64,000 nt of DNA from the IMG/VR virus record IMGVR_UViG_3300026519_000239, positions 1-64,000 of that record. One strand, given 5' to 3'. Positions 19,309-59,076 of the stretch are shown here, piece by piece (position 1 is the first letter of the stretch; each line of letters begins with the position of its first letter). The notes under the pieces are model-generated. The model did no database searches. It was given only the letters and a program-made list of their open reading frames with translations, and was not told the origin of the DNA. This DNA is from a virus. The translations under genes and the position numbers were made by a program.

Positions 19309-21273
19309 GTGCCTACATTAACGTTCTTTGGGTTAAGTACATCCTCCCTATATGATCTGGATGCCCTATCCTCTAAAGAGCCATACAAAGACTATCTCAT
19401 TAGTGGAATAAGCAATCATGCAACTGCTAATGAGATAGTTAGAGCATGGGCAATGGCTTCTCCTACAAGTAAGCTAAGACGCTTATGGACTGCACCTCGT
19501 GCTTCTGGAAAGGCTGAGTACTCGAATACCTATTTCGATAATACACCAATAAGTAAGCAAGCTATTCTGGCCAATTATGTGAGACGCGAATACCGTCCAA
19601 GTAACCGCTTGCCTGTTACATGGCCTGGAGTACAAATTAATAATCTAGACATTGATTCAATAGCCAAGACAATCTCATTTGATTTCACGTTCACTACTGG
19701 CATTGCTGGTCAGGGACATGTCGATTTGGATTTTAATGATCCATACATCAGATACATCAAAGCACCTGATATAGCTGCAAGGATGCTTCCTACTGAGCTT
19801 AGAACTTACAAGATACCTTGGAATACTCCTATCGTTATCAGGCAGCAAGAAGCTTCTACATATATAGAAACCAAAGACTACATCCAGCAGTTTGAATCTA
19901 TAACGAAAATCAAAACCAAGCCGTTACATGACGCTGTTCTGGATCAGCTTGATGCAGGTGTAACTATAGAGACAGCATGGATGATGCCTGTGCTAGAGCT
20001 AAACTCACTTAAAGATGACAGGCTATTAACTGCTGCTGGTATGGCTTTTCTACGTATCATGGAGGAGTTCAGTTCCAATGCAATATTTGTAGATAACTAT
20101 CCTGTCACTGGGCATGGGCTTACTGATGATCAGATTTATGACCTTGATTTTAGAAGAAAGTACAAGTTAGGGGGAGTTACTAATCTTGATACTACGACCG
20201 CTGGCACCCAATCTGAGTATGGGTGGCAGTTGTCCTTTAACAGCATAGGAGCAAGGGAAGTACCAGCAGGAACTGCTACTGGTTTCAAAGTAGTCAGCGA
20301 TCCAATTACATTCACTGTTCCTGGAACAGCGCTGTATTCAGATATATCTGATGAATATAACCCCGGTAAAATTAAGAAGTATGTGAACTCATACATTGAG
20401 CTTACATTCAAATGGAATGACAAGACCATTCGTCTATGGGCCAAAGACTACGTATTTAGATTTATCTATAGAGATCCAGGAGATACTCAATACAGTATCT
20501 ATGACACGCAAACTGGTACAGGTGACATCGGATACTACGTTCCTTTCCCTGTAGAAGTAGCACAAAGTCTTAACGTATATGATCGTGACATAGCTGTGTA
20601 TTCATCATGGCATATGATCATGTATGCCACCCAGAAGGTTAAGGTTAAGTGGTATCAAACCAAGCAATTTTCCAATCTGGTCAAAATTGCTGCTATTGCA
20701 TCTTTGATTGTTACACTCGGGCAGGACGCTCCTCTTGTAGCTGCCGTAACTGCTGCTACAGGTGTTACTGGAGCTGCTGCTGTAGCTATCGCATTAAGTA
20801 TCACTATTATTGCAGGGTACGCTGTAGGAGAACTTGCTAGGGTCCTTGTAGCCAAGTTCGGTGATATTGGTTACGTACTAGCTGTACTGCTTGCTATTGC
20901 GGCTGATAGCTTTTTAGGCACTGGCTCATTAGAAGGGGTACTGACTGCCGATATCGCTACCGCTGCTACAGCACTATTTAAGACATTTAACCTATACACA
21001 CAAATAGAGACACAAGAAGTCCTTGAGGCGATGGAAGAGTTTGAGGAAAAATACGAAGAAAGAATTGAACTCATCAAGGAAGCCAAAGACAAAATGCCTG
21101 ACATTAATGAATACTTGAGTACCAGTAGATGGAGGAATTTGGTTTCAAACCAAGACTTTGATACCAGTGCAGAAGAATTCCTGCACAAAACTACATCTAT
21201 CTTTTCTCTCTTTGATATAGATAGCGCCATGATACAGTCGTGGTATGACTTTAATTTAACACTCAAGGTATAA
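19309..21273 (+). CDS. Virion protein, N4 gp53-position, with membrane-like segment, 654 aa
   Basis: GTG start at 19309 with GAGAGGGTGTACTT upstream. The N-terminal 440 residues are mixed alpha/beta. Residues 455-540 are strongly hydrophobic and Ala/Val/Ile-rich (LVTLGQDAPLVAAVTAATGV..., VLAVLLAIAADSF), suggesting two or three membrane-inserting helices. An acidic helix at about 560-600 follows. Such a segment would fit a protein that forms part of the DNA-ejection channel through the cell envelope. Confidence 0.6.
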   Translation: MPTLTFFGLSTSSLYDLDALSSKEPYKDYLISGISNHATANEIVRAWAMASPTSKLRRLWTAPRASGKAEYSNTYFDNTPISKQAILANYVRREYRPSNRLPVTWPGVQINNLDIDSIAKTISFDFTFTTGIAGQGHVDLDFNDPYIRYIKAPDIAARMLPTELRTYKIPWNTPIVIRQQEASTYIETKDYIQQFESITKIKTKPLHDAVLDQLDAGVTIETAWMMPVLELNSLKDDRLLTAAGMAFLRIMEEFSSNAIFVDNYPVTGHGLTDDQIYDLDFRRKYKLGGVTNLDTTTAGTQSEYGWQLSFNSIGAREVPAGTATGFKVVSDPITFTVPGTALYSDISDEYNPGKIKKYVNSYIELTFKWNDKTIRLWAKDYVFRFIYRDPGDTQYSIYDTQTGTGDIGYYVPFPVEVAQSLNVYDRDIAVYSSWHMIMYATQKVKVKWYQTKQFSNLVKIAAIASLIVTLGQDAPLVAAVTAATGVTGAAAVAIALSITIIAGYAVGELARVLVAKFGDIGYVLAVLLAIAADSFLGTGSLEGVLTADIATAATALFKTFNLYTQIETQEVLEAMEEFEEKYEERIELIKEAKDKMPDINEYLSTSRWRNLVSNQDFDTSAEEFLHKTTSIFSLFDIDSAMIQSWYDFNLTLKV

Positions 21274-21278
21274 GCGTA

Positions 21279-21710
21279 ATGGGCATCTTTAATGGCATTC
21301 AAGGAGCGGACATTCTGTCTCCTACCAATCAGCTATCTCCTGTATCAGGAGCTGTAGGGGGAATTACTGATCCACAACAATCAGCTCAACTTGCGGCTGC
21401 TATTGAGAAACTAGGGACTGCTCAGAACTTCGGAGCTAACCTATCTACTGCTAAGTTTGGTTTAGGGGCATTAGGGGCTGGTTTTGATATCTACGCTGGA
21501 TTGAAGAATCTTGGATTAGCTAAAAAACAATTTAACTTTAACAGGAGCTTAGCTAATAGAAATCTAGCAAATCAAGCAGCAACTACAAATCTGGCTATTG
21601 ATAAGTATGGCTACAATAAATTAGCTGGCACTGGTTTAAATGCTCAAGATTTGGCTAAAGCTGTGGAATCTTATGTTGCCAGAAATAAGGTAGATGGTAG
21701 CCCTATCTAA
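21279..21710 (+). CDS. Virion-region protein, N4 gp52-position, 143 aa
   Basis: Ala/Gly/Leu/Asn-rich helical protein with a hydrophobic stretch about 57-75 (FGLGALGAGFDIYAGLKNLGLA) followed by an Asn/Ala-rich helix. It lies between the 654- and 321-residue proteins in a tightly packed operon. Composition resembles internal ejection proteins of podoviruses. Family unknown by eye. Confidence 0.55.
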   Translation: MGIFNGIQGADILSPTNQLSPVSGAVGGITDPQQSAQLAAAIEKLGTAQNFGANLSTAKFGLGALGAGFDIYAGLKNLGLAKKQFNFNRSLANRNLANQAATTNLAIDKYGYNKLAGTGLNAQDLAKAVESYVARNKVDGSPI

Positions 21711-21725
21711 TAGAGGTATTTTCTT

Positions 21726-22691
21726 ATGGGGACGATCACATGGAGAACAGTTACATCTGCTAATAACGCAGCCAGTAATGCTCTACAACTAGCAGGCCAG
21801 AAGCAGATCAGCGGTGCCTTCGATAAGCTGTCTGGATTGGTAGGGCAACGTCAACAAGATGCTGCTGCTATTGATCAAGCCAAGATAACAGGACAGCTAC
21901 TCAACAGAGATGCAACACAAGAAGAAAGACAAGTACTGGCTTCTTTATATGGTTCAGGTGTTACCGATCCAACTGCCCTGAAAAGTGCCCTAGATGCTTT
22001 CAAAGTATCCAGAGATGCTCAACGTGCACAAGTAGCTAAAGCTCGTGAAAATCAAGCTCAGAGAGCATTTGATGCACAGCTAGAGCAGTATAAGCAGGCA
22101 GGGCAGAACGCACGTACTAGGATGACTACAGGAGCCACTCTGGACGCTGCCAATGCTAGGGCACGGGCTGCATTGGAAGCCGCTGGCATCCGTGCTGATG
22201 CTGCGAAATACGGTGCAAGGCAAAGTGCGGCTGCAAGTAAATATGGAGCTGACACAAGAGCTGAGGCACAGTTACTTACTGCGTATTTGAATGGCTTGAA
22301 TAAGAAAGGAAGCAGTAAAGGAGGCAGTGGAAAAACTGCTAAAAAGAAGTACACACAAGAAGATGCTACAAAGCTAATTAAGGATGTGTATGGATTGTCT
22401 GGAACCAAGGTTGATCCAGATAAAACAGGTTCTCTTGTATCTGGTGTAATGGCTGCTCTTAATGGAGGAGCTACAGTAGATCAGGTTGGTTCAGCTATTG
22501 GATCTACTATCAATGATCCTTATTGGTTTAACCCCGCAGGATCTACCACTAACCTTCCATCTGATCCAGTAGCAGGGACTACTGAGTTTCTAAAGCTACT
22601 TGATACAGCTACTGCTAATGTAGGCGCATCTGGTGCTCCACAAGTAGATCCTGCTACAGTAGCTGCTGCACGGGCGTTGTTTAATAAGTAA
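21726..22691 (+). CDS. Virion-region protein, N4 gp51-position, 321 aa
   Basis: Highly Ala/Gln/Arg-rich helical N-terminal two thirds (for example QRAQVAKARENQAQRAFDAQ, then repeated AARARAALEAA-type helices), a Gly/Ser/Lys-rich linker around 195-215 and a small C-terminal domain. The composition resembles ejection or core proteins packed with the virion polymerase. It directly precedes the giant gene with one small gene between. Confidence 0.55.
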   Translation: MGTITWRTVTSANNAASNALQLAGQKQISGAFDKLSGLVGQRQQDAAAIDQAKITGQLLNRDATQEERQVLASLYGSGVTDPTALKSALDAFKVSRDAQRAQVAKARENQAQRAFDAQLEQYKQAGQNARTRMTTGATLDAANARARAALEAAGIRADAAKYGARQSAAASKYGADTRAEAQLLTAYLNGLNKKGSSKGGSGKTAKKKYTQEDATKLIKDVYGLSGTKVDPDKTGSLVSGVMAALNGGATVDQVGSAIGSTINDPYWFNPAGSTTNLPSDPVAGTTEFLKLLDTATANVGASGAPQVDPATVAAARALFNK

Positions 22692-22937: not shown

Positions 22938-22961
22938 AGCCCGGACTATCCGGGCTTTTTT
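22938..22961 (+). terminator. Terminator before the giant virion polymerase gene
   Basis: AGCCCGGA (22938-22945) and TCCGGGCT (22949-22956) form an 8-bp GC-rich stem with a 3-base loop, followed by TTTTT. It lies 27 bases before the ATG of the giant gene, so that gene is read by transcription leaking through this terminator or from an unseen promoter. This may keep the number of polymerase copies low. Confidence 0.9.
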
Positions 22962-22987: not shown

Positions 22988-25900
22988 ATGAGTAAGCTAG
23001 ACGATCTGTTGTCAGCTCTATCGACTACTGCTGATCAGCGAGTAAACGCCGCAATGGATAAGTACACCAACATCTTTGGTGGTCCTTCTCCTGATCAACC
23101 AGTTCAAGTCCCAAAACAACAAGAGGCTGAAATTGCCTCACAGCGAGCGCAAACAACAGTAGAAGCACTGAATCCTCAACAACCTGCCCCTGAAGAAGCA
23201 CCACTTACTCCTGAACAACGTTTGGCTCAGATCAGCGGTGTTACGGATATTGATCCAAAGAAGGAGTACATAGAGGTCAAGACACCTGACGGCAAATCCA
23301 AACTAGTTGATGCTACCAGTTCAGATGGAGATAACATCACCAGAGCTATCAGGAACACGTATAACAATACAACTGAGCGTGGGTATGCACTGGATACATG
23401 GGAAGTTCCTCATGGTGGCAAGAAGCAACAAGAAGCTTTCTTCAACAGTAACAAGGGACAGAAGCAGCGTGAAGCAGCGGCTCGTATCCTTGGTATTTCT
23501 CCTGAGCAGGTTACCGCTGAGCACATCTTCACACTTGGGCAGAATGCAGCCAAAGAAAGAGCCAGACTCATTGCTGAGCATGGTGGTTTAGTTGGTTCAG
23601 TAGAGCTTGGTGATGTACGTAATGATCCAACTACAGGCAATCGAGTACTGTCTTCTACCAAATTAGCGGATGGTACTGATCTTCGTGACTTATTGAATAC
23701 GCCTCTACTAAATGCTGATTTCTACAGCAAATATAATTCCAGAGGTAGAAGAGATTACGAACTTGGGTCAACTAAGAATCCAGATGGAGGGGCAGTTCTC
23801 AGTGACGCTGAAGCTGCTAATCCATCTGCTGTTGGTTCTTTGGTTCAGATTGGTACCAGTGCTATTGATGCCTTCTTGCGTACTGGTTTAGGTGGCGTAA
23901 ATGCAGCCGCTAATACTGGTGTACAGATTGCGGCTGCTTTACAAGGCGAAGGTATTCAAGACCTTACACCAGAAGACAGGCAGATATTTGACAGGATTCG
24001 TGACACTGAGAAGAAGGGCAAGACGCTACTCAGTAAGATCGAAAAAGACCCTGTAGCTTCCAAAATAGATGTCATTGACCAAATGACAAACCAAGCCATT
24101 GAAGCTACTGGAGGTACGCCTGAGCAGCCTGTTGATAAGCTGGATAAGTACATGCAGGAAGCACTTGCTCCTGAAGAATACGCTATTTGGAAGGGTACAG
24201 CTAAGAGACCTGATACTCCTATCCAGAACAATGCTTTGGACTCTCTCACTAAGAAACCAGAGGGTATTCTAGATACGCTATCTCAATCAGCGGGCTTAGC
24301 TGCTGGATTGATATTTGGTTTCGGTACTGTGAAAGCTGCTGCTAATCCATCTGCTGCTATTCAACAAGCCAGGCAGCAAGTTGAAGGTACTGGTTTAGTA
24401 GACAAGACAGATAAGACTAAGTTTCAAAGATACAGTGAGGTTAAACAGCAACAGGAAACTGCTGCTAAAGCCATTGCTAACCCAGTAGATACAGTACTAG
24501 GGACAGAAGGGCGTAACGATCAGCAAGACAGATTTAGAGTTAACGCCAAGACTGGCAGAGCTGAGTATGTGCCTATGCACAACGCATATGGTGACAAAGC
24601 AGCCATGGAGATTCTCGATGCTGGTGCTGAAAGGATGGTTAAGGCTGGCGAGAAAGGAGATTACATAGGAGTAGTAAGTGAAGCTGCGTCTACATTATAT
24701 GACGTAGTAACTAAAGAGAAGACAGCTACAGCCAGTGCGTTTGCTGATGTTATTGGTTTAGCAGCAGCAACGATGTTTAACAAGAAAGGTGCTGTTGAAG
24801 AAGGTACTGGTTTCGTAGGGAAACTTGCTGGATTCGTAAAGAATCTGCCTAAAGGAGCTAATGGTCCTCAAGCCCTTAATACTGCTTTCAAAGCAGCCAA
24901 CATCGTTGGTTTACAGCAAGACAAGCTCACTGAAATGGAAACCAAATTCACTGAGCTGAATAAAGGTGAAGCTCCTACCCCAGAAGAGTATGAAAAGATC
25001 AAAGATCTATCTGTAGTAGCTTCTGCTGTGGATTTACTAGGCATTGCTATGTTTACTGGACCAGGCGGTAAGGCAATGTCTGAGATGCTCAGTAAAGCCA
25101 CTACCAAAAAAGCTGGACAGTTTGCTAGCAAAGTACTAGCTGAGATGGCAGGTACAGGTATTAATGGGTTGGATGAGGTAGCTGTAGAAGCCATTACTCA
25201 ACTCGGTACTAGGCAGCGTCAAGGGGACTTCGATAAGAAAGCATGGGCAGTATCTTTTCTCCAAGGGGCGCAAGCAAAAGCTCCTGGGGCTGTGCTTGAA
25301 GTAGCTACTAAAGGTATTCCATCTATTCCCGGAGATGTACTGGACGGCACTGTGAAAGCAGTGAAGATGTACCAGCGTGTCAATGACGTTGCGAAGGGGC
25401 ACAAGTTCACTATTGATGAAGAAGGGAATGTTCACTTCAAAGGGAAGGTGATGCCTGGAATGGTTCCTCCTGATCCAGAGACAGGTAAGTATCCTACTGA
25501 GGTTCCTAAGGATGTAGAGAAAGCTATCAAGCAGATGATCTACAAAGGGCAGGGAGATGCTGTAGTTAAGCATATTGCCAATACGAGAGCAGTGCTTGAA
25601 GGAGAGTTTACTGAAGAAGATCTTCAGAAACGCATCATTACTCCTTCTGTAGATATTGTTACAGAAGCCTCCATGGCTGCTGATCAGGCGTTCGTTGATA
25701 CTGCGGAGGTAGAGTCTCCTGAGACCGGAGAAACCGTTCCTGCTGAACCTGCGGTGCCTCAAGAGCTTGATGTTACTAATCCAGAGGAAGTTATTGCTGT
25801 ACTCAAGAACCAAGACATCCCGGTGGTTCAGAGAGCAGCTATTACACTGGCCGTGCAGTCTCGTATGCAGACTATTTATGGGCAGACTGTAGCTCAGATG

Positions 25901-28900
25901 CAAGAAGCAATGACTAAAGGAGAACTGGAAGGAGACAAAGCTGAAGCAGCTATTGCTTTATTGGATCAGTATGAAGCTTGGATTGATGTACTGAGTACAC
26001 AGGTTGATTCTCTGCCTAAGAATGAAAGGGTAGAGGCAGGCGTTATCTATCAGGAAAAAGGAGATCAATTACTTGCAGATATTATTCGTGGATCAGCACC
26101 TGAAGTAACCAAACAGGACACAGCCAAGAGTCCATTGGTTCAGTCGTACAAAAAAGTACTGGATTACATCAACACTCGTGATGAGGAAGATAATAAGACT
26201 GCTGATGATGTACGAAAAGAGGTACTTCAAGACGGAGAGAATGCATCAGGTAAGAAAGGACTTATGACTCATATGAAGGCTTTGGCTGTCGCGGGTATCA
26301 GTAAGAACCCAGAGGCTTTGGCTTATGCAAGAGCTGAGGTTAATAGCTTTCTGGCTTCTCAAACTGACAAGCTAAATAAGCTGAAAGAGGCTGTAGATGC
26401 ATATGAAGAAAGTGGCAATCCTGTACCTGTTTACTTCAAGAGCAACATAGCCAAGAAAGAACCAAACTTTGTTGTAGATAATCCAGGTAAGGTACGTAAC
26501 TTTATCAAGGTCATTGAGCAAGAAGTTCAGATGATTGGTGAAGTAGCTAAGATGGGAGATGAGCTACACAACAAGTTGAAGAACAATGAACCAATACTTG
26601 AGGATGCGTTGGAGAAGCAATTAAAAGAGACAGGTAAAAAAGTTTCTGATATTGCTAATGCTCCTAAGCAGAATCAGAAGAAGGAAGACAATGTTGCTAC
26701 CCAGAAAGAAGATAAAGCACCTGTTAATGCTGAAGTACAGACCACAGATAAGGCTGATACTGCTCCTACTAAGACACAGGTGGATGCTAAGAAAGTTGAG
26801 GATAAGCCAAAAGAAAAGCCAGTAGCTAAGAAAGCCAAGAAGAAGAAAGAGAAGCCAAAGGTAGATGTACTCGGTGACGAGGTTAAAGCTGAGCCTACAC
26901 CCGAAGAAATCAAAAAAGATACTGAGGATGCTAAACAGCAACAAGAAAAAACCAAAGAGCAATGGCTTGAAGATCCTCTTGTAGCTGACATTAAAGCTGC
27001 ATTTGAAGAAGCTCAGAATCAAGATCCAGAAGATAATGCTGATATAGCTGATCTTAAGCCTGTTCTGGATCTCACGAAGACTGAGAAGGTAGCCAAGGAG
27101 ACTTCCAAGGAAGCAACTCCTATGGTGAAAACAATACAGTCCCATACGAAGAACGTATCTATCCTGATGAAGCAGATAAGTTCTCGTAGGTATATGCCTC
27201 CGGGACTGAAGAAGCTGATGGAGTCGGGTAAACAACTTACTACTGACTACTTCTTGAAGGGGAGGAAGAATCCTACTGGTTTGTTGGCTCTACCTTCACT
27301 GACTGCTATCGGTAATTATCTCAAGGATGTTGGAGATACTGGCCTTGAAGCATTCAGGGCAGATTTGCTTGGTGAACTTGGTCCTGCAATGAAGAAGGAG
27401 CTATTCAAGCAATTCCAGAATTCAGCTAACTACGTGATAGGTAGAAAGCTATCTTTGGATAAGTTAGCTACCAGTCCTATTGGTTTGTTTCTAAATGAGA
27501 AGAATGAACTGGCTCCTCAGCTACGTAATGCAATGCTGCACACTGCTGTTGAATGGATTGCTGATAAAAGCGTAGCCAGTGTATTGAAGACTGACAAAGA
27601 GGTGTATGCATCTCTTGGATTAGACATCAAATCAGACTTCATTACTCCTTCTGTACTGGATGCTCTTAGAGACATGGGAGAGCTGAGATCTAAGTTAGCT
27701 GAACAGTTGGGCAATCGTGTACTGGAAGGGCTTGGTATTGATCTTAACTCCGATGTACCTGATGCTGGATTCAGACAGAGGCTAGTTGGTTCTATTGGAT
27801 TATCCATGCTGTCTGCTATGGCTAATATCAAGGATAAGAAAGGAGAGCCAATCATTCACTTCAACAGAGTTCCCTCTGAGTTGATGGCTGAACTTACTGA
27901 GACTGCTTCTGTATCCATGGAAGCCAGTCCTGTGTATGTCAGTCTCAATATTCAGAGAGATGAGTATCAACGTCCTGTAATGGATCAATCAGGTAGGGTA
28001 CGTGTAAACAATCTATTGGCTTACAAGATCAGGAAGAAGACGAATCAATCTAAAGAAATATACAAGAAGTACATGGAGCTGGCTTTTGGTAAGAAACCAA
28101 TAACTCGTACTACGAGCTATAAGCCATTCAAAATGCGTAAGCCAGAGGATATTAAGGATCGTCCTACTCGTAATAATAGCTATGGGCAACTAAGTGAAGC
28201 TGAGTTGGATCATGTGAACCAACTGCAACAAGTAGCTTTCAAAGCCAATCCACTGATCAAGATGATGGATCTTAAAGAAGGAAGGATGGCTATTGCCAAG
28301 ATGTTCGGGTACGTAGAACCCACTAGAGATGGTGATATTCCTTCTTTACCGCTTGATAAGGTGAAAGGTCAGCTAGCCAAGAATGAAGCGATTATCCGTG
28401 ATCTGGATGCTGTACTGGATAAGCTTTCAGAGCAAGACCAAACCATAGAAGAACTCACTAAAGCTAGAGATGAGGCTACTGACCCTAAAGACAGGGAACG
28501 TTTACAACGTGAGTTAAATCAAGCCAGAAAGAAAGAAATCTATTTTCCATTCAAGATAAGTACATTTGGTCGTGCGTTGGATAACGCTCAAGATCTAAGT
28601 ATTCAGAGAAGCAAGATACACAGGAATATCTTCACTCCTGCTGAGTCCACTCATACATTCCCGATGAGCGATACCAAATCTATGGAGGCCATTATGAAAT
28701 CCTTCATAGAGCCTCTTGGTTTGGATCGTGTGCGGATGGAGAGTGATCCTACAGGAGAGTTCATGGATAGATTTGCTATCAAGAATGCCGATGGTACATA
28801 CACTGCATCTGATCCTGTAATAGAGAAGGGAATACAGGCTATGCAGGCATTTCTGAGAGATGACTTTTACAAGCCAGAAGACATTACAGCAGCAGTGGAT

Positions 28901-31900
28901 GAGCTTGGTGAAGAAGGACACTCTTGGCTTGCTTTAATGGATGTAGCAAATATCCGTACTGCGCTTGAATCAGGCAACCCAGATGCATCGATAACAACTT
29001 ATAGCTACATCGAAGTAGATGGTATATCAAACGGAATTATGTCCATGTTAAGACAGGTGATGTCTGAATTTGATGCCAAAGAAGCAATTAATGATCCAAA
29101 TAGTTTCAGTGCTGAAGTATTGGATTTTGCGAATGCAGGCGGTATGTACATTGAAGGAGGTAAGTACCAATCCTACGGAGAGTATCTAGCTGATGGTGGG
29201 TATGACGTATACCAGAAGGTGATTATCAAAACTGCTGATGCTATGGATAGAGCAGTTACAGCCGCTAACAAGATGACTCCCAAGGATGTTACCAATCTAC
29301 GCATACGTCTTGAGAATGAGCAAGCCAAGTCAGCTAATAAACGGAACCAGTCGTTGATTGCTGAACTCAAGAGAGAGTTAGCTATTTATGCTGTTAAGGA
29401 CATCATTCCTGAGTTCGTAGTAGAGGGGACTAATCAAGTAACCAAGGGCGCAAGGAAAATTGGTAAGTCCTACGTATTGCCTAAGAACTACATGTCAGGA
29501 GACAAGGCAGCAAAGGAAGGTGTTGCTAGAGATATGTTGGATTCCATGAGAGCTGAGTTGGCTGAATTGGCATCAAAGGTGTCCCCTGTTGCTGTGATTA
29601 ACAATGATTCGAATGATGCTGATCTTAGAGCATTCAAGACTGCTGCTAAGCGTATGAATGCATTTCTAAGGCAAGTTAACCCTGAGATACCTGCCTACAC
29701 GTGGGACACAGCGAGAGAGCCTTTTAGTAAAGAACATGAAGCTCAAGCAATACAAGTCATAGTAGATGGTCTTGGTTCAATACTTGCTGATGGGTATTTT
29801 GAAGCAGCGGGTAAGTTTACAGAGACAGGAGGTAAGTCTCTGAACATTATTGGACAAGCTCAAGCCATTATTGTTAAGCACATTGCTCAGCAACGTATCA
29901 ATGCTGCGATGGAGAAAAAAGGAGGTGCTGTACTCAGTGAGGGTGAGCGTCAAAAAATTATGCAGGAGCTTGCTGATGAAGGAATTTATGTAGGAGCCAA
30001 GACACCTGATAGTGATGCTGATAGGTCATCATTCATTTTGGATGTAGTTGATCGTAAACCAATGGAAGATGCTCAAGGTGGGTACGTACAGAATGACTAC
30101 TCAGGAGACAGTAGAAGGCCCGGATATACCGTTCCTGTACGTGAGTTTGGTTTCGTAGATGGAGAGCTTGTAGATACTGGCATCAAGCCAGTGAAGTCAG
30201 CTAAAGCCTCTATATACGTTAAGCAACCTAGTTCTAAGATTGGTTTGAGGATGGCTATTGGTTTGAATATCAACCAAGAGTCAGCTACTAACAGACAGCT
30301 TGAAGGTAGCTCATATGATCTATTCGATGCTCAGTTGAATGATCCAATGAAAGATGCTGAAGCGTCTAAGAAGATCAACAAAGTATGGGAGACTTATCAG
30401 CAAGACAACTCCATGATGGAGAATGCTGTTAACCAGCTTGAGAGACTCATAGAGGCTAGCAAAAAGTTTAATAGCCCTGAACTTACAGGTGAGATCAATA
30501 GGTTCCTTGAGGAGCTTAATGATCATCCTGATAGTCCTATTGTAGGTGATACGCTGGATAAGCTACTAGTTGATGCCAAGAGCATGTCCAATCGTATCAA
30601 TCAAGCTAGAAGCCAATTCAATCAGGCTGTGAGTGTATCTGGTCAGTATGACTCTATAGGTAATGCTTATGAAGTCAAAGAATCCAATGTACATGGAAGC
30701 TCAGCTAGAAGGATTAATCTGGATACTTTCAAAAAAGGAGAGTCTGTTCCTGTAACCATGAGCAGTATTTCTATGCTGTGGGCGCAGACAAAGGCAGGGC
30801 AGAAGATTGGAGATACCAAGGAAGATGCAGCTTACATGGATGAAATATTCGGTAAGCATATTCTTCCAATGGTTCAGAGAGTACGTGGCCTCACAGTAGC
30901 TGTACAAAATAGTAGGTATGAAAGAGGTGGAGCAGCTAAGGGTAAGAATATTTTCATTAAGAGAAATTCTGCTGTACGTGAGTTAGCTACTGATATGAGT
31001 GATGCTGAGATCATGTTGCATGAGTTTACTCACCCGTTATGGGAAGAGGGATTCAGACAGGATTCATTGTCTTTGGATCAGGTCAGTAAGCTTATGGATG
31101 AAGCTATTGCTAGTGAGGAGTTCACTCCTGAAGCATTAATGGATAAGAGTCATCCTGATCCAGAAGAAGCCTACAATGCAGCTAAACAGTTGTATGACTA
31201 CATCACTTCTGATGTACATGAATTTGCTACTTTTGGTTTAACCAATGCTCGTGTACGAAGAGTGCTTAATCGCATTGAAACCAAGAAGACCAAGGGCAGA
31301 CCAAAGACACTGTTGAATCTTCTCAGGAGCATATTTGAGGCTCTACTAGGTAGATGGAAGAGCTATGAGAGTAAGAGTCCTTCTACTATTGGTGTAGAAC
31401 TTGAGAACATTGCAGGACGTTTCCAACAAGCAGCAGAAGCATCTAACAAGACTCTGTACAAGAGACTTGAGAATAAAGCATTCAAGGAGGTTAACAAGAA
31501 GATTGTAGAGCCAATAGTTGAGTGGCAAAAGAGTGTTACTGACAGAGCGCCTGATTGGAAGAAGGCTTTGGCTTTACCTGCTGGATTGCTTAGGAGTGAG
31601 TACACCACTCAGCTAGGCAAGTTAGGCGATCGGCTGGTTAAGGAACACCACGGAATATTGGCAGATGCAGCAAGGGAGATGCTTGGTCCTAATAAGGTAA
31701 CCAGACCATTCCATAGAATGTTGAGTTATGTGAATGAGCATGTGGACTCAGCAGCTATTAGAACCACTCAGGCAACCTCTCAAGTCATCACTGAATTGTT
31801 TAATAAGAAACTAACTAATAAGCAATGGAAAGCTCTTACAGATGGGTTACTGAGGACAGATGCGTATGTAGCTGAGCGAGCTATTGGTTTAGATGGATTG

Positions 31901-33937
31901 AAAGATATTGTATCTAACGATAAGTCAGATGAATATCGGAGTAGTGCAGTAGAAGACATTCGTTCTAATGGAGTATCTAAAAAAGATGTGCATATTATTG
32001 AGCAGAAAGTAATAGATTTGGTTCGTGCTACTAAGGGACTGCCAGTTACTGGAGAGATTGAACCAAATATAGCTGCCATTGCTTATAGTACGCTTGGTAA
32101 AGATATTCTGAAGGACACTCCTACTCTGAATAGCATTGTGAATCAAATAGGCGTCATGTACTTCGTAGAGTCCTATGGGTACTTGTCAGATAAAAAGAAA
32201 GGCATGATCAAAGACATGATGGAAGAAGAGAGTGTAGGCATTGAAGGGATGCTTGAAATCGTAGCTGCTAACAAGGAGAAAGAGATTGCAGGCAGATACG
32301 AGGGAGACCCTCTAAATATGATTGCTGGTGATATAGGGATCTTTGACCCAGAAGTAAGAATCATGGAAACCAGCAAGAAGAATAAGAATAATCATATTCT
32401 TCTGCGTGATCTTGGGAATGGATATGGAGTATTCAGAAATGGCTACGTAGCTTCTATGGATTATTCCAAGGGATTGTTTGGCTTGACTGATAAGAGTAGG
32501 AGACCAGGTACTTTCATATCTTTCGATGAAGCCAATAAGATGAAATCCACTGATGGCTTATTTAAGAGATATCGTAACGGTAAATTGATTGGGTATGAGC
32601 TGAGGCTTACTGAAAAGGATCAGAACAAACATATAGACAAGAATCGGCAAGCACATGAGCTGATAGGCAGCGAAGCTGGAAGGATCATGCGTGAGGATAG
32701 GACAGAGAAGTACAACCTCGAAGCTATAGACATGGTTTACGCTGATTGGGAAAGGAAGTATGCCAAGAATCCAAAGCAATGGATCAAGGTATCTACTAAT
32801 AGCAAGAATAGGCAGGTAGCTGAGTTTGCCCGTACGATGCCTAAGCATATGAAGGATAAAGCCAACGAGTTGTTTCCTAATGGTGAGATGTATGTGAGGA
32901 AGGAGCAGCTCAATTTATTGCTTGGATTCAGGAAACTTTCAGTGGCTCAAGAGATTGAGAGAGTTACCAAGAAGAAGTTACCAAGACCAGTAGTCAAGTC
33001 TATTGTTATCGGCCAAAAGCTATGGGAAACAGTTATATCTGACGTTAAATCCAAAACTATTCTGTTTACCCCAGCAGTCGTACTAGGCAACCAAATGAGT
33101 AACATGCTGTTGCTGAAATTGAAGGGAGTTGACTTTGAAGATGCCATTAGAGGGCAGGTAGAAGGATTGCGGCAGATCAAGATTCACTTAAAGTTGCAAA
33201 AGGAGATTGCAGCTCTTGAGGCTAAGCAGATAGCTGGGGATGTAAGCCCTACAATACAGAGACAGATTGATCGTAAAAGGACTAGGATGGAAAGCTTGGG
33301 TATTCATCCATTGATCAATGAAGGAATCTTTCAGCCTATCGTAGAAGACCTGTCATCCAGTGAGTTTGGGGATGCTCCTGTTGGCGTAGAGACTCTCAAG
33401 CTAGTAAGTCCTAGGTTGGCTGATAAATTGAATGTAGCTGGTGAGAAAGCACCTGCATGGGCACGTAAGGCAGGTGCTTTAATGATGCTATCCCCTAGTA
33501 CAAAACTAGGTAACAACATTAGGCTAGCAACATCCTACAGTGATGTACTGGCTCGGTATGTACTGTTTAATCATCTACGCAAGACTGAACCATCGAAAAG
33601 CCCCAGGGAGCATGTAGATGAAATTATGGATACATTCGTAGACTATGCTCCCAATACATCTAGAGGTATCCAGTTCCTGAATGATTCTGGCTTGTATATG
33701 TACACTAAGTTCTTACTAAGGACTCAGAGAATTATTGCAAGAACATTGGCTGATAGTCCTGATCGATTCATTGGGTTGCAGTTGGCTCAAGCAGTAGTTG
33801 GGGATTTGCCTGATATTGCGGATTCGCAAATGTTGACTGGGATTTCATTGGGAGGAGGAAGGACAGTTACTCCAGATGAAGCTATAGATACAGTAACCCA
33901 GTTACCGTTGTTCTATGCACTGAAACAAGTATTTTGA
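22988..33937 (+). CDS. Giant virion RNA polymerase (N4 gp50-like) with metallopeptidase motif, 3649 aa
   Basis: ATG at 22988 after TTTTGGAGATCGTA; the frame opens at 22976 without a better site. Position and size match N4 gp50 (3500 aa), the RNA polymerase injected with the DNA. Candidate single-subunit polymerase motifs, in order: a T/DxxGR-like STFGRALD (R1862), motif A IEVDGISNGIMSMLRQ (D2011), motif B RKIGKSYVLPKNY (R2156, K2160, Y2168, with exactly the R+4 K, R+12 Y spacing of T7 and N4), and motif C SYDLFDA (D2444). A HEFTH zinc-protease motif is at 2678-2682. The region 1330-1500 is Lys/Glu-rich and low-complexity. The C-terminal ~900 residues are helical, as in the large polyvalent virion proteins. 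It would transcribe the early genes right after entry. Confidence 0.75.
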   Translation: MSKLDDLLSALSTTADQRVNAAMDKYTNIFGGPSPDQPVQVPKQQEAEIASQRAQTTVEALNPQQPAPEEAPLTPEQRLAQISGVTDIDPKKEYIEVKTPDGKSKLVDATSSDGDNITRAIRNTYNNTTERGYALDTWEVPHGGKKQQEAFFNSNKGQKQREAAARILGISPEQVTAEHIFTLGQNAAKERARLIAEHGGLVGSVELGDVRNDPTTGNRVLSSTKLADGTDLRDLLNTPLLNADFYSKYNSRGRRDYELGSTKNPDGGAVLSDAEAANPSAVGSLVQIGTSAIDAFLRTGLGGVNAAANTGVQIAAALQGEGIQDLTPEDRQIFDRIRDTEKKGKTLLSKIEKDPVASKIDVIDQMTNQAIEATGGTPEQPVDKLDKYMQEALAPEEYAIWKGTAKRPDTPIQNNALDSLTKKPEGILDTLSQSAGLAAGLIFGFGTVKAAANPSAAIQQARQQVEGTGLVDKTDKTKFQRYSEVKQQQETAAKAIANPVDTVLGTEGRNDQQDRFRVNAKTGRAEYVPMHNAYGDKAAMEILDAGAERMVKAGEKGDYIGVVSEAASTLYDVVTKEKTATASAFADVIGLAAATMFNKKGAVEEGTGFVGKLAGFVKNLPKGANGPQALNTAFKAANIVGLQQDKLTEMETKFTELNKGEAPTPEEYEKIKDLSVVASAVDLLGIAMFTGPGGKAMSEMLSKATTKKAGQFASKVLAEMAGTGINGLDEVAVEAITQLGTRQRQGDFDKKAWAVSFLQGAQAKAPGAVLEVATKGIPSIPGDVLDGTVKAVKMYQRVNDVAKGHKFTIDEEGNVHFKGKVMPGMVPPDPETGKYPTEVPKDVEKAIKQMIYKGQGDAVVKHIANTRAVLEGEFTEEDLQKRIITPSVDIVTEASMAADQAFVDTAEVESPETGETVPAEPAVPQELDVTNPEEVIAVLKNQDIPVVQRAAITLAVQSRMQTIYGQTVAQMQEAMTKGELEGDKAEAAIALLDQYEAWIDVLSTQVDSLPKNERVEAGVIYQEKGDQLLADIIRGSAPEVTKQDTAKSPLVQSYKKVLDYINTRDEEDNKTADDVRKEVLQDGENASGKKGLMTHMKALAVAGISKNPEALAYARAEVNSFLASQTDKLNKLKEAVDAYEESGNPVPVYFKSNIAKKEPNFVVDNPGKVRNFIKVIEQEVQMIGEVAKMGDELHNKLKNNEPILEDALEKQLKETGKKVSDIANAPKQNQKKEDNVATQKEDKAPVNAEVQTTDKADTAPTKTQVDAKKVEDKPKEKPVAKKAKKKKEKPKVDVLGDEVKAEPTPEEIKKDTEDAKQQQEKTKEQWLEDPLVADIKAAFEEAQNQDPEDNADIADLKPVLDLTKTEKVAKETSKEATPMVKTIQSHTKNVSILMKQISSRRYMPPGLKKLMESGKQLTTDYFLKGRKNPTGLLALPSLTAIGNYLKDVGDTGLEAFRADLLGELGPAMKKELFKQFQNSANYVIGRKLSLDKLATSPIGLFLNEKNELAPQLRNAMLHTAVEWIADKSVASVLKTDKEVYASLGLDIKSDFITPSVLDALRDMGELRSKLAEQLGNRVLEGLGIDLNSDVPDAGFRQRLVGSIGLSMLSAMANIKDKKGEPIIHFNRVPSELMAELTETASVSMEASPVYVSLNIQRDEYQRPVMDQSGRVRVNNLLAYKIRKKTNQSKEIYKKYMELAFGKKPITRTTSYKPFKMRKPEDIKDRPTRNNSYGQLSEAELDHVNQLQQVAFKANPLIKMMDLKEGRMAIAKMFGYVEPTRDGDIPSLPLDKVKGQLAKNEAIIRDLDAVLDKLSEQDQTIEELTKARDEATDPKDRERLQRELNQARKKEIYFPFKISTFGRALDNAQDLSIQRSKIHRNIFTPAESTHTFPMSDTKSMEAIMKSFIEPLGLDRVRMESDPTGEFMDRFAIKNADGTYTASDPVIEKGIQAMQAFLRDDFYKPEDITAAVDELGEEGHSWLALMDVANIRTALESGNPDASITTYSYIEVDGISNGIMSMLRQVMSEFDAKEAINDPNSFSAEVLDFANAGGMYIEGGKYQSYGEYLADGGYDVYQKVIIKTADAMDRAVTAANKMTPKDVTNLRIRLENEQAKSANKRNQSLIAELKRELAIYAVKDIIPEFVVEGTNQVTKGARKIGKSYVLPKNYMSGDKAAKEGVARDMLDSMRAELAELASKVSPVAVINNDSNDADLRAFKTAAKRMNAFLRQVNPEIPAYTWDTAREPFSKEHEAQAIQVIVDGLGSILADGYFEAAGKFTETGGKSLNIIGQAQAIIVKHIAQQRINAAMEKKGGAVLSEGERQKIMQELADEGIYVGAKTPDSDADRSSFILDVVDRKPMEDAQGGYVQNDYSGDSRRPGYTVPVREFGFVDGELVDTGIKPVKSAKASIYVKQPSSKIGLRMAIGLNINQESATNRQLEGSSYDLFDAQLNDPMKDAEASKKINKVWETYQQDNSMMENAVNQLERLIEASKKFNSPELTGEINRFLEELNDHPDSPIVGDTLDKLLVDAKSMSNRINQARSQFNQAVSVSGQYDSIGNAYEVKESNVHGSSARRINLDTFKKGESVPVTMSSISMLWAQTKAGQKIGDTKEDAAYMDEIFGKHILPMVQRVRGLTVAVQNSRYERGGAAKGKNIFIKRNSAVRELATDMSDAEIMLHEFTHPLWEEGFRQDSLSLDQVSKLMDEAIASEEFTPEALMDKSHPDPEEAYNAAKQLYDYITSDVHEFATFGLTNARVRRVLNRIETKKTKGRPKTLLNLLRSIFEALLGRWKSYESKSPSTIGVELENIAGRFQQAAEASNKTLYKRLENKAFKEVNKKIVEPIVEWQKSVTDRAPDWKKALALPAGLLRSEYTTQLGKLGDRLVKEHHGILADAAREMLGPNKVTRPFHRMLSYVNEHVDSAAIRTTQATSQVITELFNKKLTNKQWKALTDGLLRTDAYVAERAIGLDGLKDIVSNDKSDEYRSSAVEDIRSNGVSKKDVHIIEQKVIDLVRATKGLPVTGEIEPNIAAIAYSTLGKDILKDTPTLNSIVNQIGVMYFVESYGYLSDKKKGMIKDMMEEESVGIEGMLEIVAANKEKEIAGRYEGDPLNMIAGDIGIFDPEVRIMETSKKNKNNHILLRDLGNGYGVFRNGYVASMDYSKGLFGLTDKSRRPGTFISFDEANKMKSTDGLFKRYRNGKLIGYELRLTEKDQNKHIDKNRQAHELIGSEAGRIMREDRTEKYNLEAIDMVYADWERKYAKNPKQWIKVSTNSKNRQVAEFARTMPKHMKDKANELFPNGEMYVRKEQLNLLLGFRKLSVAQEIERVTKKKLPRPVVKSIVIGQKLWETVISDVKSKTILFTPAVVLGNQMSNMLLLKLKGVDFEDAIRGQVEGLRQIKIHLKLQKEIAALEAKQIAGDVSPTIQRQIDRKRTRMESLGIHPLINEGIFQPIVEDLSSSEFGDAPVGVETLKLVSPRLADKLNVAGEKAPAWARKAGALMMLSPSTKLGNNIRLATSYSDVLARYVLFNHLRKTEPSKSPREHVDEIMDTFVDYAPNTSRGIQFLNDSGLYMYTKFLLRTQRIIARTLADSPDRFIGLQLAQAVVGDLPDIADSQMLTGISLGGGRTVTPDEAIDTVTQLPLFYALKQVF

Positions 33938-49661: not shown

Positions 49662-51764
49662 TTAAGTGATGAAACGGTGCATAGAGTTAATCATATGAGA
49701 TGGAACCGATGACTTGTGTGCGTTTAGGCTACGTTCTTGTGAGCAAGGAACAGTTACCAAGTCAGGTCTATTCCATCTGTCCATGAAGAAACTCATGGCC
49801 ATATCCCGGAATGTATTCAGATAGCCGGGAGGCATCATGAAAGCATCATGGATGTCTATGAGTGCAGGGATGGTTACACCTATCCGTCGAGCCAAAGCAC
49901 CATCCAGTGAATGGATAGTATTGGCTCCAGCAGCTAGATTCCTTCCATCTGGGTTGCCTACAGTAATCACCATAGACACCCCACTCTCCTCATCAATAAC
50001 TACCTCCTTTTTCTGTGTACATACATAGAACGCCTTATATGTGCCACTGGTATAATCTGAGTGAATGTCAGGCATGCGCACTACACAGTCTTGATCAGTG
50101 AACTCTGCAAGTTTGCATTGGTTCAGATGTGTGTTAACAGCAGGAATTACTTTCTGTATCCCCATTTGCAAAGCCACTGCTGAACTAGCATCCACTCTCT
50201 CATACGCAGAAGTACTTCCATACATGATAGGCATGAGGAGTGTATTCTTGAGGAACTTACGATCATCAGGAGCGTTCCACATACCGGTCTCTTTGGCTGC
50301 TTCTAGTACTTCCATGTACACATCTACTGGAGGTGTATACAGTTCGTCATACCAGTTATCTGTTAGTAGATTGCTAACAGAAGCTGTTTGTACACATCCG
50401 TAGATAGCACCAATCCACTGAGTAGCATTGGAAGTGAAGTCAACAGTGATAAGCCTTCTGCTTACTTCATAAAGATTTCCTTTTCTAAGCAAGTCAATGG
50501 TCTTCTCAGCATACTTCCATGCATAGTACTCATTGTCTTTCTCAGGTGTTTCTACTGTTTTGCGGTTGCACACAATATCTAAGCCATATTGAAGCCTGTC
50601 CATGAAAGAAGCTTTCTCTTCCACGAACTTACCTAAGTACCACAACACACTAGGCACTACCTCAGCTCTTTCTGATTCCAGTCCTTGAAACATACAAATT
50701 GCAACATCCTCAGCATCTAGCGTAGGCAGTTGCTTGATAAGCAGTTCATCTGCTGTTCTTGTTATATTTATCTCCTTAATTATCTCAGGAGTTACAAGAC
50801 AGTTTCTTAGATGATGGTATTGCTTAATTGCATTGTAGTTTCTACCGCGGGAATCCAGCTCAGGAATAAACCAAACATCGAAGCCAAGTTCATGATAGGT
50901 GTACATCAAATCACGGCATAGATTGTAGTGATAAATCACTGACTCTCGCGTGGCTTCCTTGATGTAGTTACCATTTTTGTCTTCTGCTGTGGGTTCCCAG
51001 TGCTCAGACAGAATATCTACATCTATATCAAAAGTCTGCTCAGCCAATGAAAACAATATTTGCTTCTTTGGCTTTTCCATATACTTTGGTACAGATTTTG
51101 TATATCCAGTATATCTTCCGTCTTCTTTCAGCTTCGCAAATACAGCGTTGATAATGTTACGACTAGCAATTGCTGAGAGGCTTTTCGGAACACACATAGG
51201 AAGCAAGCCAGTATTGCATTGCTTATCTACGTTAATTGCCTTTGGACAGTGAAGATCATGGATATCTATAATACTGCCCTTTACTGTGAAGAGTTTGGTT
51301 TCTTCTCCTATGCGTTTCAGCATTTGGTACAAAGTATTGCCAGTTTTCTCTACCTCTTCTTCGTACTTCTCACCTGCGTTGAGGGCAGAGATACCATGAT
51401 GACTTAATACCGTATGCAGCAATCCATGGATAAGCGTCTGTACAGCCATAGTCTTTGTAGGCTGCATGCTGAGCTTAACTAAGATGGCTGTATACAGTTT
51501 GCCAACGATGTCTAATGAATGGTTTGGAAATGCTTGCACCAGAATTTCTCTGACTTTTGTGAAAGCTAATTTATAGCCTTCATTGTTGTCATAGAGATCA
51601 GTCAAATATTCTTTAGCAAATTGCTTTCCTATATCGTTGCTATACCATTCAAGTATAAATTCATTTACCTTTATGGCTTTATCTGTGTTTGATAAGTCAT
51701 CTTTATTTATATATCGGATGTAGGCTCCCATAACGGGAGCCAGTATCTGTGGTTTACGTTTCAT
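49662..51764 (-). CDS. Single-chain T7-type RNA polymerase (N4 RNAP II counterpart), 700 aa
   Basis: Motifs of single-subunit RNA polymerases: DxxGR at ELDSRGRNYN (D304-R308), motif A ITVDFTSNATQWIG (D442), motif B DDRKFLKNTLLMPIMYG (R502, K506, Y515; one residue longer between K and Y than T7), and motif C LIDIHDAF (H639-D640). At 700 residues it is smaller than T7 RNAP (883) and close to the sum of the two N4 RNAP II subunits gp15+gp16. So the two-gene N4 enzyme appears here as one fused chain. It would transcribe middle genes. Its position, upstream of the AAA/VWA pair, is that of N4 gp15/gp16. Confidence 0.88.
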   Translation of the reverse strand: MKRKPQILAPVMGAYIRYINKDDLSNTDKAIKVNEFILEWYSNDIGKQFAKEYLTDLYDNNEGYKLAFTKVREILVQAFPNHSLDIVGKLYTAILVKLSMQPTKTMAVQTLIHGLLHTVLSHHGISALNAGEKYEEEVEKTGNTLYQMLKRIGEETKLFTVKGSIIDIHDLHCPKAINVDKQCNTGLLPMCVPKSLSAIASRNIINAVFAKLKEDGRYTGYTKSVPKYMEKPKKQILFSLAEQTFDIDVDILSEHWEPTAEDKNGNYIKEATRESVIYHYNLCRDLMYTYHELGFDVWFIPELDSRGRNYNAIKQYHHLRNCLVTPEIIKEINITRTADELLIKQLPTLDAEDVAICMFQGLESERAEVVPSVLWYLGKFVEEKASFMDRLQYGLDIVCNRKTVETPEKDNEYYAWKYAEKTIDLLRKGNLYEVSRRLITVDFTSNATQWIGAIYGCVQTASVSNLLTDNWYDELYTPPVDVYMEVLEAAKETGMWNAPDDRKFLKNTLLMPIMYGSTSAYERVDASSAVALQMGIQKVIPAVNTHLNQCKLAEFTDQDCVVRMPDIHSDYTSGTYKAFYVCTQKKEVVIDEESGVSMVITVGNPDGRNLAAGANTIHSLDGALARRIGVTIPALIDIHDAFMMPPGYLNTFRDMAMSFFMDRWNRPDLVTVPCSQERSLNAHKSSVPSHMINSMHRFIT

Positions 51765-52679: not shown

Positions 52680-53210
52680 TTAAAAGTTATATAAAAATCC
52701 AAATACAGCTCCTACACGGAGTTTTCTTTCTCCGTGATAGTACTCCACTATTTCCTGCTCGCATTGCATGAACTCGCCTACAGTACAGCTTGTATGAAGC
52801 TCTGTGCGCTTCTTTCTGTACCAGCCCCAGTTAGGTAGCATGTAGATAGAAACTCTCTTCACAGGCGAATACAGTAATCCAGGGAGTACACCAATTCTGC
52901 TGTCATACCTGGCTAATGAAAGCCTGAATGCTGTCTTCTGGCTTAGTTTGGTTTCCCAGCTTATGACAGGAGTCATTTGGCCAAATGAGTTTCTAAATAC
53001 TCCTAAGCCAAAGCCAGAGTTATGGATAGCACCAATACCTGGAGTGAAAGAGTGTAGCTTCTCCCCTCCTTTCTTCTCTGTGATGCCTACATGGTAAGCA
53101 CCAACTATGGCTTGGTATCTCCACTCACTGTTATCTGCCTTGGCTTTGGCAGCCCAGAACCAAACAGCAAAGATAAGGGCTATGATGATTATCTGAGTTC
53201 CTGTATTCAT
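52680..53210 (-). CDS. Probable outer-membrane beta-barrel protein, 176 aa
   Basis: N-terminal hydrophobic helix (IIIIALIFAVWFWAAKAKA) ending in a plausible signal-peptidase site before DNSEW. The rest alternates hydrophobic and polar residues with many aromatics. It ends GAVFGFLYNF, a C-terminal aromatic typical of the signal recognised by the outer-membrane assembly machinery. The size suits an 8-stranded barrel, like PagP or OmpX; no active-site residues can be assigned. It is one of two outer-membrane proteins encoded here. Confidence 0.6.
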   Translation of the reverse strand: MNTGTQIIIIALIFAVWFWAAKAKADNSEWRYQAIVGAYHVGITEKKGGEKLHSFTPGIGAIHNSGFGLGVFRNSFGQMTPVISWETKLSQKTAFRLSLARYDSRIGVLPGLLYSPVKRVSIYMLPNWGWYRKKRTELHTSCTVGEFMQCEQEIVEYYHGERKLRVGAVFGFLYNF

Positions 53211-58612: not shown

Positions 58613-58655
58613 CGGGGGGCAGGTCGGATCCAGTCCACGTACAGACACCCCCTAA

Positions 58656-59006
58656 GCCACTGTCTGCTGCTAATATATTTTTGATGTCAGAAGTTTTTTC
58701 ATACCACTGTCTATTAGTAGTATATTTTTGATGTCAAAAGTTTTTCTCCCTCACACCTAAGCTACCACTCTCTGCTAATGGTAGATTTTTTACCTCAAAA
58801 CTTTTTCTTAGATATTTCTAAGCCACTCTCTGCTGATGATATATTTTTTGTCCCAGAACTTTTTTTCATACTACCATCTGTTGCTAATAGATTTTTTATG
58901 CTGAAACTTTTTCCCTATACTGCTCTCTATTAGTAGTATGTTTTTTATCTCAAAAGTCTTCCTATACTGATCTCTATAATTAACAGATTGCTTATCTTAA
59001 TAATCC
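58656..59006. repeat. Degenerate tandem array, about seven units of ~46 bp
   Basis: Units begin near 58656, 58701, 58762, 58822, 58868, 58914 and 58962. Each has a block like CCACTCTCTGCTAAT, a short GTAG/GTAT arm, a T-run (ATTTTTT), a TCAAAA-type block and a second T-run (CTTTTTC). Several units have an incomplete stem (for example CTACCA/TGGTAG at the third) directly before the T-run, so they look like weak terminators in series. No gene is visible here. Confidence 0.75.
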
Positions 59007-59076
59007 TCTCAATCCAGTACTATTCCTCTTAAGTTGGTTTCTATCCTTAATCTTCTTAGTTGTTGTATCTCTTAAT

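Follow-up and report, generated by a model that had tools for sequence, protein, structure and literature searches.

Genomic context of the virion RNA polymerase gene

The analysed stretch of DNA, hereafter the window, comprised bases 1-64000 of a virus record of 74,335 bases and was found to contain a giant open reading frame (ORF) with an ATG start and no internal stop (Table 1). This ORF is the N4-type virion RNA polymerase (vRNAP) of an uncultured N4-like phage, and the identity proposed in the first-pass annotation was borne out by profile, motifs, fold, domain order and gene order alike. The protein matched PHROG 2206 (virion RNA polymerase) at E 1.3e-173 and its PDB sequence matches were confined to N4 gp50, while no Pfam match above the curated cut-off was found for the vRNAP or for its zincin domain. 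The giant single ORF was located in the late structural module beside the gp51 and gp52 counterparts and was found to contain the conserved C2 region. By analogy with N4 (PMC12633501, PMC4496689, as far as their accessible text goes), the protein is inferred to be packaged in the virion, ejected into the host and used in early transcription.

The vRNAP gene was preceded on the plus strand by portal, PHROG 2346, PHROG 2120, major head protein, PHROG 2130, PHROG 2050, gp53-like and gp52-like genes, followed beyond the vRNAP by SSB, Sak4, primase, exonuclease, DNA polymerase, helicase, gp25-like, gp24-like and RNAPII genes on the minus strand. This is the order of the N4 annotation, as had been proposed. 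The core genes of N4, from terminase, portal and major head protein through gp53/gp52-like, vRNAP, SSB, Sak4, primase, exonuclease and DNA polymerase to gp25/gp24-like and RNAPII, were present in N4 order, as in Schitoviridae. Neither tRNA genes nor Rfam matches were found. A minus-strand ORF at 52680-53210 showed a weak match to the PagP-like PHROG 3600 (E 1.1e-5).

Table 1. Features of the vRNAP locus and their positions
Feature	Position	Strand	Remark
Terminase	L004:6011-7669		
ORF in place of N4 gp53	19309..21273	+	phrog_2220, E 1.8e-24
ORF in place of N4 gp52 (ejection protein)	21279..21710	+	phrog_2646, E 1.3e-13
ORF in place of N4 gp51 (ejection protein)	21726..22691	+	position; weak PHROG match only, phrog_5158, E 8.3e-4
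Intrinsic-terminator-like hairpin and T run	22938..22961	+	directly upstream of the vRNAP start, after the gp51-like ORF
vRNAP gene, N4 gp50 counterpart	22988..33937	+	3649 aa
vRNAP N-terminal part, residues 1-1394	22988..27169	+	ends in a low-complexity linker (about 1215-1390); boundary from RNAP model
Single-subunit RNA polymerase domain, residues 1395-2588	27170..30751	+	model pLDDT 70.8; N4 mini-vRNAP Z 24.8
R1862, TxxGR-type motif	28571..28573	+	aligned to N4 R1421, invariant
D2011, motif A	29018..29020	+	aligned to N4 D1556, invariant
Motif B, R2156 K2160 Y2168	29453..29491	+	aligned to N4 R1663 K1667 Y1675; R and K invariant
D2447, motif C	30326..30328	+	aligned to N4 D1948, invariant
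Zincin-type domain B, residues 2602-2774	30791..31309	+	predicted counterpart of decayed N4 C2 start; 75.2 bits, profile without window
HEFTH, residues 2678-2682	31019..31033	+	motif search, profile
E2745, predicted third zinc ligand	31220..31222	+	Glu in 17/17 live B domains
Rest of C2, residues 2775-3649	31310..33934	+	best conserved part of vRNAP
RNAPII gene	49662-51764	-	one ORF, 700 aa

Relatives of the phage

A megablast search with window positions 1-25000 returned no matching phage record, and single-protein IMG/VR scans, run with the primase and with the RNAP and C2 parts of the vRNAP, returned no relative. The C2 part was found to match 437 records, all below 60% identity, with the best at about 27% among the matches listed. 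In a C2 tree of 57 rows the window was placed among uncultured IMG/VR phages, nearest to locus L021 (27% identity), on a long branch whose exact place is unsure. The phage appears deeply branched from the known Schitoviridae sampled.

Conserved motifs and fold of the polymerase

The polymerase part was found to contain STFGR (1858-1862), IEVDGISNGIMSMLRQ (2008-2023), RKIGKSYVLPKNY (2156-2168) and SYDLFDA (2442-2448), followed by HEFTH behind the polymerase, each present once and at the position first reported. The columns R1862, R1879, D2011, G2016, G2052, Y2075, R2156, K2160, D2447 and N2464 were invariant in the window and 35 IMG/VR relatives; R1862, D2011, R2156, K2160 and D2447 were invariant over 17 sequences and again over 36. 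The polymerase motifs are judged not to be due to chance. The motif C aspartate had been assigned to D2444, but that column was found to be unconserved (K in N4; N, P, A or D elsewhere) and the conserved aspartate is D2447 of LFDA, so that the distance from motif A to motif C becomes 436 residues.

The TxxGR, A, B and C motifs of single-subunit RNA polymerases were present with N4-like spacing. The R+4 K+8 Y spacing of motif B was the same as in N4, and of the N4-like distances reported earlier, the 149 residues from R to motif A (135 in N4) stood as given whereas the 433 residues from A to C needed the above correction (392 in N4). As background, the comparison used the motif residues and distances of T7 and the residue numbering of N4 mini-vRNAP.

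The predicted model of residues 1395-2588 (pTM 0.71; pLDDT and Z score in Table 1) was found to align with N4 mini-vRNAP over 955 residues at 4.9 A, whereas the best T7 chain reached Z 17.9 over 489 residues, and Foldseek hits 1 to 10 were all N4 vRNAP structures. The expected N4 polymerase fold was thus recovered, and the opposite outcome, a model lacking it, did not occur. The residues R1862, D2011, R2156, K2160, Y2168 and D2447 probably form a T7-type active site.

The HEFTH domain

Domain B of the window was found to contain the HExxH motif followed by a downstream glutamate, as in zincins. The metal site appears to be intact, with H2678, E2679, H2682 and E2745 present, and zinc binding is inferred. 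The HEFTH motif and E2745 were located in two helices of the CTD model (pLDDT 69.1), preceded by a stretch of pLDDT below 50; model residues 65-95, which lie in the first half of the zincin-type domain, were below 50 and no beta sheet was predicted there. Pfam zincin matches of the B-domain members were weak and scattered (best E 0.0011, in 2 of 15 members).

The metallopeptidase motif proposed behind the polymerase was retained as far as the two histidines and the downstream glutamate are concerned, which are conserved as in zincins; peptidase activity and zinc are predictions from sequence, and protein cleavage by the domain is possible. An HExxH was present in this part of all 82 vRNAPs covering the region and is, on that count, not due to chance. 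The motif had been thought absent from N4, but N4 contains HELVH at 2228, described in the accessible text of Iyer 2017 (PMC5512222) and Bellis 2025 (PMC12633501). HExxH itself is therefore not new to N4-type polymerases, the N4 motif having been in print since 2017. Nothing in the analysis spoke for the suggested role in cell-wall passage.

Two zincin-type domains behind the N4 polymerase

The solved N4 vRNAP was reported to contain the HExxH motif in subdomain C1 (2124-2375), followed by C2 (2376-3500), which has no structural likeness to anything known (Bellis 2025, PMC12633501, accessible text); the MPTase domain was placed at N4 2130-2448 by Iyer 2017 (PMC5512222, likewise). In the first alignment the window HEFTH was found opposite N4 F2456, within C2. 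A first local alignment around HExxH had equated HEFTH with the domain of N4 HELVH, an assignment that was dropped after structure mapping, profiles and the count over 82 proteins.

In the RNAP model, window residue about 2583-2588 corresponded to N4 residue about 2100. The CTD model, aligned regardless of motifs, was found to begin its N4 match at window 2586 and N4 2373 (Z 19.5, 549 residues, rmsd 23 A). Because the one model ends near N4 2100 and the other resumes at N4 2373, C1 is missing in the window. No match of the Z1 profile, built from 13 C1 domains, was found upstream of window domain B, and the C1 zincin domain that marks the N4 subtype was absent from the window vRNAP.

The Zs profile, built from 13 vRNAPs with a single zincin and without the window and L021, was found to match window 2602-2774 with 75.2 bits, whereas reversed decoy proteins reached at most 1.8. 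The same profile matched N4 C2 at 2439-2561, a stretch without HExxH, with 37.7 bits (i-E 5.7e-12 for 82 sequences), and the likewise HExxH-less C2 start of LIT1 and Pylas with 62.7 and 73.1 bits, as compared with 9.5 bits on N4 C1. Exceptions were DSS3phi2 and ZX86, in which the only listed Zs hit was on C1, and S6, in which the better hit was on C1. A profile of 15 live B domains (window included) searched against all PDB sequences was found to match N4 gp50 first, at the two stretches 2439-2563 (38.3 bits) and 2223-2330 (13.1 bits), followed by a WLM metalloprotease at E 0.019.

The relation between the two domains was further seen in proteins with a single zincin, in 12 of 16 of which the same stretch was hit by both Z1 and Z2 (the profile of the place aligned with HEFTH in the same 13 proteins as Z1), as in L060 with 32.9 and 63.8 bits; this ties the two domains together. 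The window domain alone scored 30.0 bits with Z1 and gave no hit over 5 bits with the dead-B profile (Z2), and hhalign gave P 7.8e-11 and 1.7e-4, respectively. The better Z1 score is read as reflecting a shared active site, because domain B is favoured by the live-B profile, by the tree and by the structure mapping alike. The N4 CTD is accordingly predicted to comprise two related zincin-type domains, a live C1 and a second, at the C2 start, with a decayed site; the window HExxH domain would be the counterpart of this decayed second zincin and not of live C1. No report of a decayed second zincin in N4 C2 was found in the accessible literature searched, including PMC12633501, PMC5512222, PMC4496689, PMC10925440, PMC8472413 and PMC10654107, in which subscription literature is thinly covered.

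Distribution of live and dead sites among vRNAPs

The sample consisted of 82 vRNAPs covering the region, namely the window, 16 isolates and 65 of 77 IMG/VR loci; the other 12, in which the ORF is shorter than 1000 aa, did not enter the domain count. The 77 loci were obtained by a search with the five-sequence alignment A3, alignment A1 (17 sequences) being too diverse as a query. Near-copies were present among the 82 rows, and grouping at 70% C-terminal identity gave 52 clusters.

At least one intact HExxH zincin behind the polymerase was found in all 82 rows, the window included, and vRNAPs with neither site intact were absent (0 of 82). A live C1 together with a B domain without HExxH was found in 65 vRNAPs, and a live B without HExxH in the preceding 420 residues in 16, three of which (L038, L043 and L074) are cut off upstream so that a C1 is possible there. 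Both zincins were live in L021 only. By cluster, 37 were found to contain a live C1, 14 a live B and one both. The first histidine and the third-ligand glutamate were retained in all 66 Z1 and all 17 live B domains. None of the 65 dead B domains had His at the first histidine position, which was occupied by Leu (35), Ala (12), Phe (8), Val (4), Ile (4) or Tyr (2); the second histidine position was mostly Glu (47) and the third ligand mostly Arg (45; Glu in 2), and the middle Glu of HExxH was retained in 55.

A maximum likelihood tree was built from 66 domains (26 Z1 and 40 B) of 40 of the 82 proteins. Z1 and B were split with support 100/99, and the 25 dead B domains formed one clade within the live ones (98/95; 97% of 200 bootstraps), which points to a single loss of the B site in the C1-bearing lineage. 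The window B was placed beside the B of L021 (96/88), and the C1 copy of L021 was found on a long branch. The pattern over 52 clusters indicates that the catalytic site is under selection, and it suggests that one working zincin copy is always kept in one of two places by these phages.

In L087, one of the 16 vRNAPs with a live B alone, on a 111-kb IMG/VR contig, two overlapping ORFs (starting at 1525 and 7106) were found to encode the polymerase and the zincin-CTD, and Z1 matched nowhere outside B; the split may be real or a sequencing frameshift. A further zincin-like match with HEIHH (18.2 bits) was present in the N-terminal part of the L064 vRNAP, at residues 510-630.

RNAPII and the early region

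The RNAPII gene of the window was found to encode one chain, the C-terminal half of which matched the gp16 profile at E 4.6e-14. The DxRGR motif, contained in gp15 in N4, was present at 304-308 of the same chain, ahead of the gp16 part; apart from it the N-terminal half showed no clear likeness to gp15. Among 37 vRNAP-bearing records, 33 others were found to contain a gp16-matching frame of 75-476 aa, one further row (G001) contained the match in a frame of 3080 aa, the size of the vRNAP of that phage, and in three no gp16 match was found. The window RNAPII is likely to be a gp15-gp16 fusion. A 2015 review (PMC4496689, accessible text) reports heterodimeric RNAPII in all vRNAP-bearing species but two, in which gp16 is split further.

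Terminator-like hairpins similar to that ahead of the vRNAP were found in 8 of 17 vRNAP upstream regions scanned, the window included, and the hairpin at 22938-22961 might hold the vRNAP copy number down. The promoter hairpin scan was found to give hits in N4 at 95, 564 and 4553, taken as P1-P3, and the same scan gave no clear family of N4-type promoter hairpins in the early region of the window. Hairpins with a 3-nt loop and stems of at least 5 numbered 10 in this region versus about 13 expected by chance, and the best pair shared 19 of 40 positions versus 22 and 21 among the three N4 hairpins. Words around AACCAAAC and GGTTTAG were enriched in the early region, and no convincing promoter element was found around them. 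Record positions 52000-65000 contained long inter-ORF gaps, and copies of words around AACCAAAC and its complement were numerous there, at a higher density than elsewhere in the genome; such words may be promoter or terminator elements. A 47-nt repeat was present seven times at 58651-59007, in a part of the early region with little coding sequence.

Interpretation

The best explanation of the whole, to which a probability of about 0.83 is given, is an N4-type vRNAP without C1 and with a live zincin at the C2 start, at least one intact site being kept in one of two domains and limited proteolysis being the likeliest role. The vRNAP would be made late, packaged and ejected into the host, where it would transcribe the early genes with its T7-type active site. 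Behind the polymerase, where N4 contains a linker and live C1, the window protein would continue without a break into the counterpart of C2. C2 would begin with a domain of zincin type, with the site decayed in N4 and its kin and intact in the window. N4-type polymerases would thus retain one or more intact zincin sites, in one of two related domains. The enzyme would most likely act by limited proteolysis once ejected, the target being a host or ejectosome protein or, under a condition found only inside the cell, the vRNAP.

The zincin could instead act in cis, with a cut in the ejected vRNAP between polymerase and CTD that would lift the inhibition of transcription by the CTD. The zincin lies at the border of the two parts, the N4 CTD damps transcription (PMC12633501, accessible text), L087 encodes polymerase and CTD as two ORFs, and autoproteolysis is one option proposed in Iyer 2017 (PMC5512222, accessible part), but the L087 split may be a sequencing frameshift, and recombinant N4 vRNAP is reported to have shown no sign of degradation (Bellis 2025, PMC12633501), which makes constant self-cleavage unlikely. 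Cleavage in cis is on balance considered unlikely, and our best guess is a zincin target in the host or the ejectosome, or cleavage on a signal inside the cell.

A site that cleaves nothing, and either binds metal for structure or performs a non-protease HExxH chemistry, is considered rather improbable. HExxH is also present in other enzymes (Bellis 2025, PMC12633501, accessible text), no cleavage by N4-type zincins is reported in the accessible literature searched, and the Pfam zincin matches were weak, as noted above; yet the HExxH glutamate and the three ligands were retained in every live domain, and the glutamate speaks against a structural site because a purely structural one would not need it. 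That HEFTH belongs to the N4 C1 zincin, the window being an ordinary N4 vRNAP in which nothing moved and the first C2 domain was lost, is very improbable: HEFTH does lie 231 residues after motif C, inside the 225-346 range of 13 C1-bearing isolate phages, and the domain alone favours Z1, but the profile made without the window, the place within B in the domain tree, the grouping with the second of the two domains that L021 owns and the continuation of window 2586 onto N4 2373 are all against it.

For the preferred reading, a live zincin at the C2 start, a wider form is moderately favoured, in which a functional zincin, placed in one or the other of two related domains, would be required by every N4-type virion polymerase, N4 C2 starts with a dead copy after one loss in the lineage with live C1, and the protease would be an essential enzyme of the ejected complex. 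The dead copy would also supply an origin for part of N4 C2, a region for which no similar structure is known (Bellis 2025, PMC12633501). According to the same paper, it is unknown what the vRNAP C-terminal domain specifically contributes to early transcription.

Comparison with known systems

The zincin-like MPTase domain of polyvalent proteins (Iyer 2017, PMC5512222, accessible text) was described with HExxH, a Glu in the following helix and fusion to N4-like RNAPs, features shared with the window domain; that text gives one or more MPTase domains, and in its accessible part a decayed copy at the N4 C2 start is not mentioned. The isolate Vibrio phages BUCT194, D454 and 1.169.O were found to contain a single live zincin at the B place and no C1, as in the window, with 18-22% identity to it in the domain, and their record annotations do not mention a zincin. 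L021 (IMGVR_UViG_3300013795_000031) was the nearest relative of the window in both trees, with a C2 27% identical, but differs in containing both zincins with HExxH (1906 and 2213), unique among the 82.

N4 gp50 (PDB 2po4, 9pnr and 9pnt) shares with the window vRNAP the order NTD, linker, single-subunit RNA polymerase, zincin and C2, the same catalytic residues, and a gene placed between gp51 and the oppositely directed replication genes. The polymerase of the window was 13% identical to that of N4 in the structural alignment, and the residues beyond motif C numbered 1552 in N4 and 1202 in the window. The window vRNAP is a variant of the N4 type in which the second of the two sites carries an intact zincin, and its chief interest is what it reveals about the N4 vRNAP, in which C1 appears live and the first C2 domain decayed, whereas the window lacks C1 and its C2 domain appears live.
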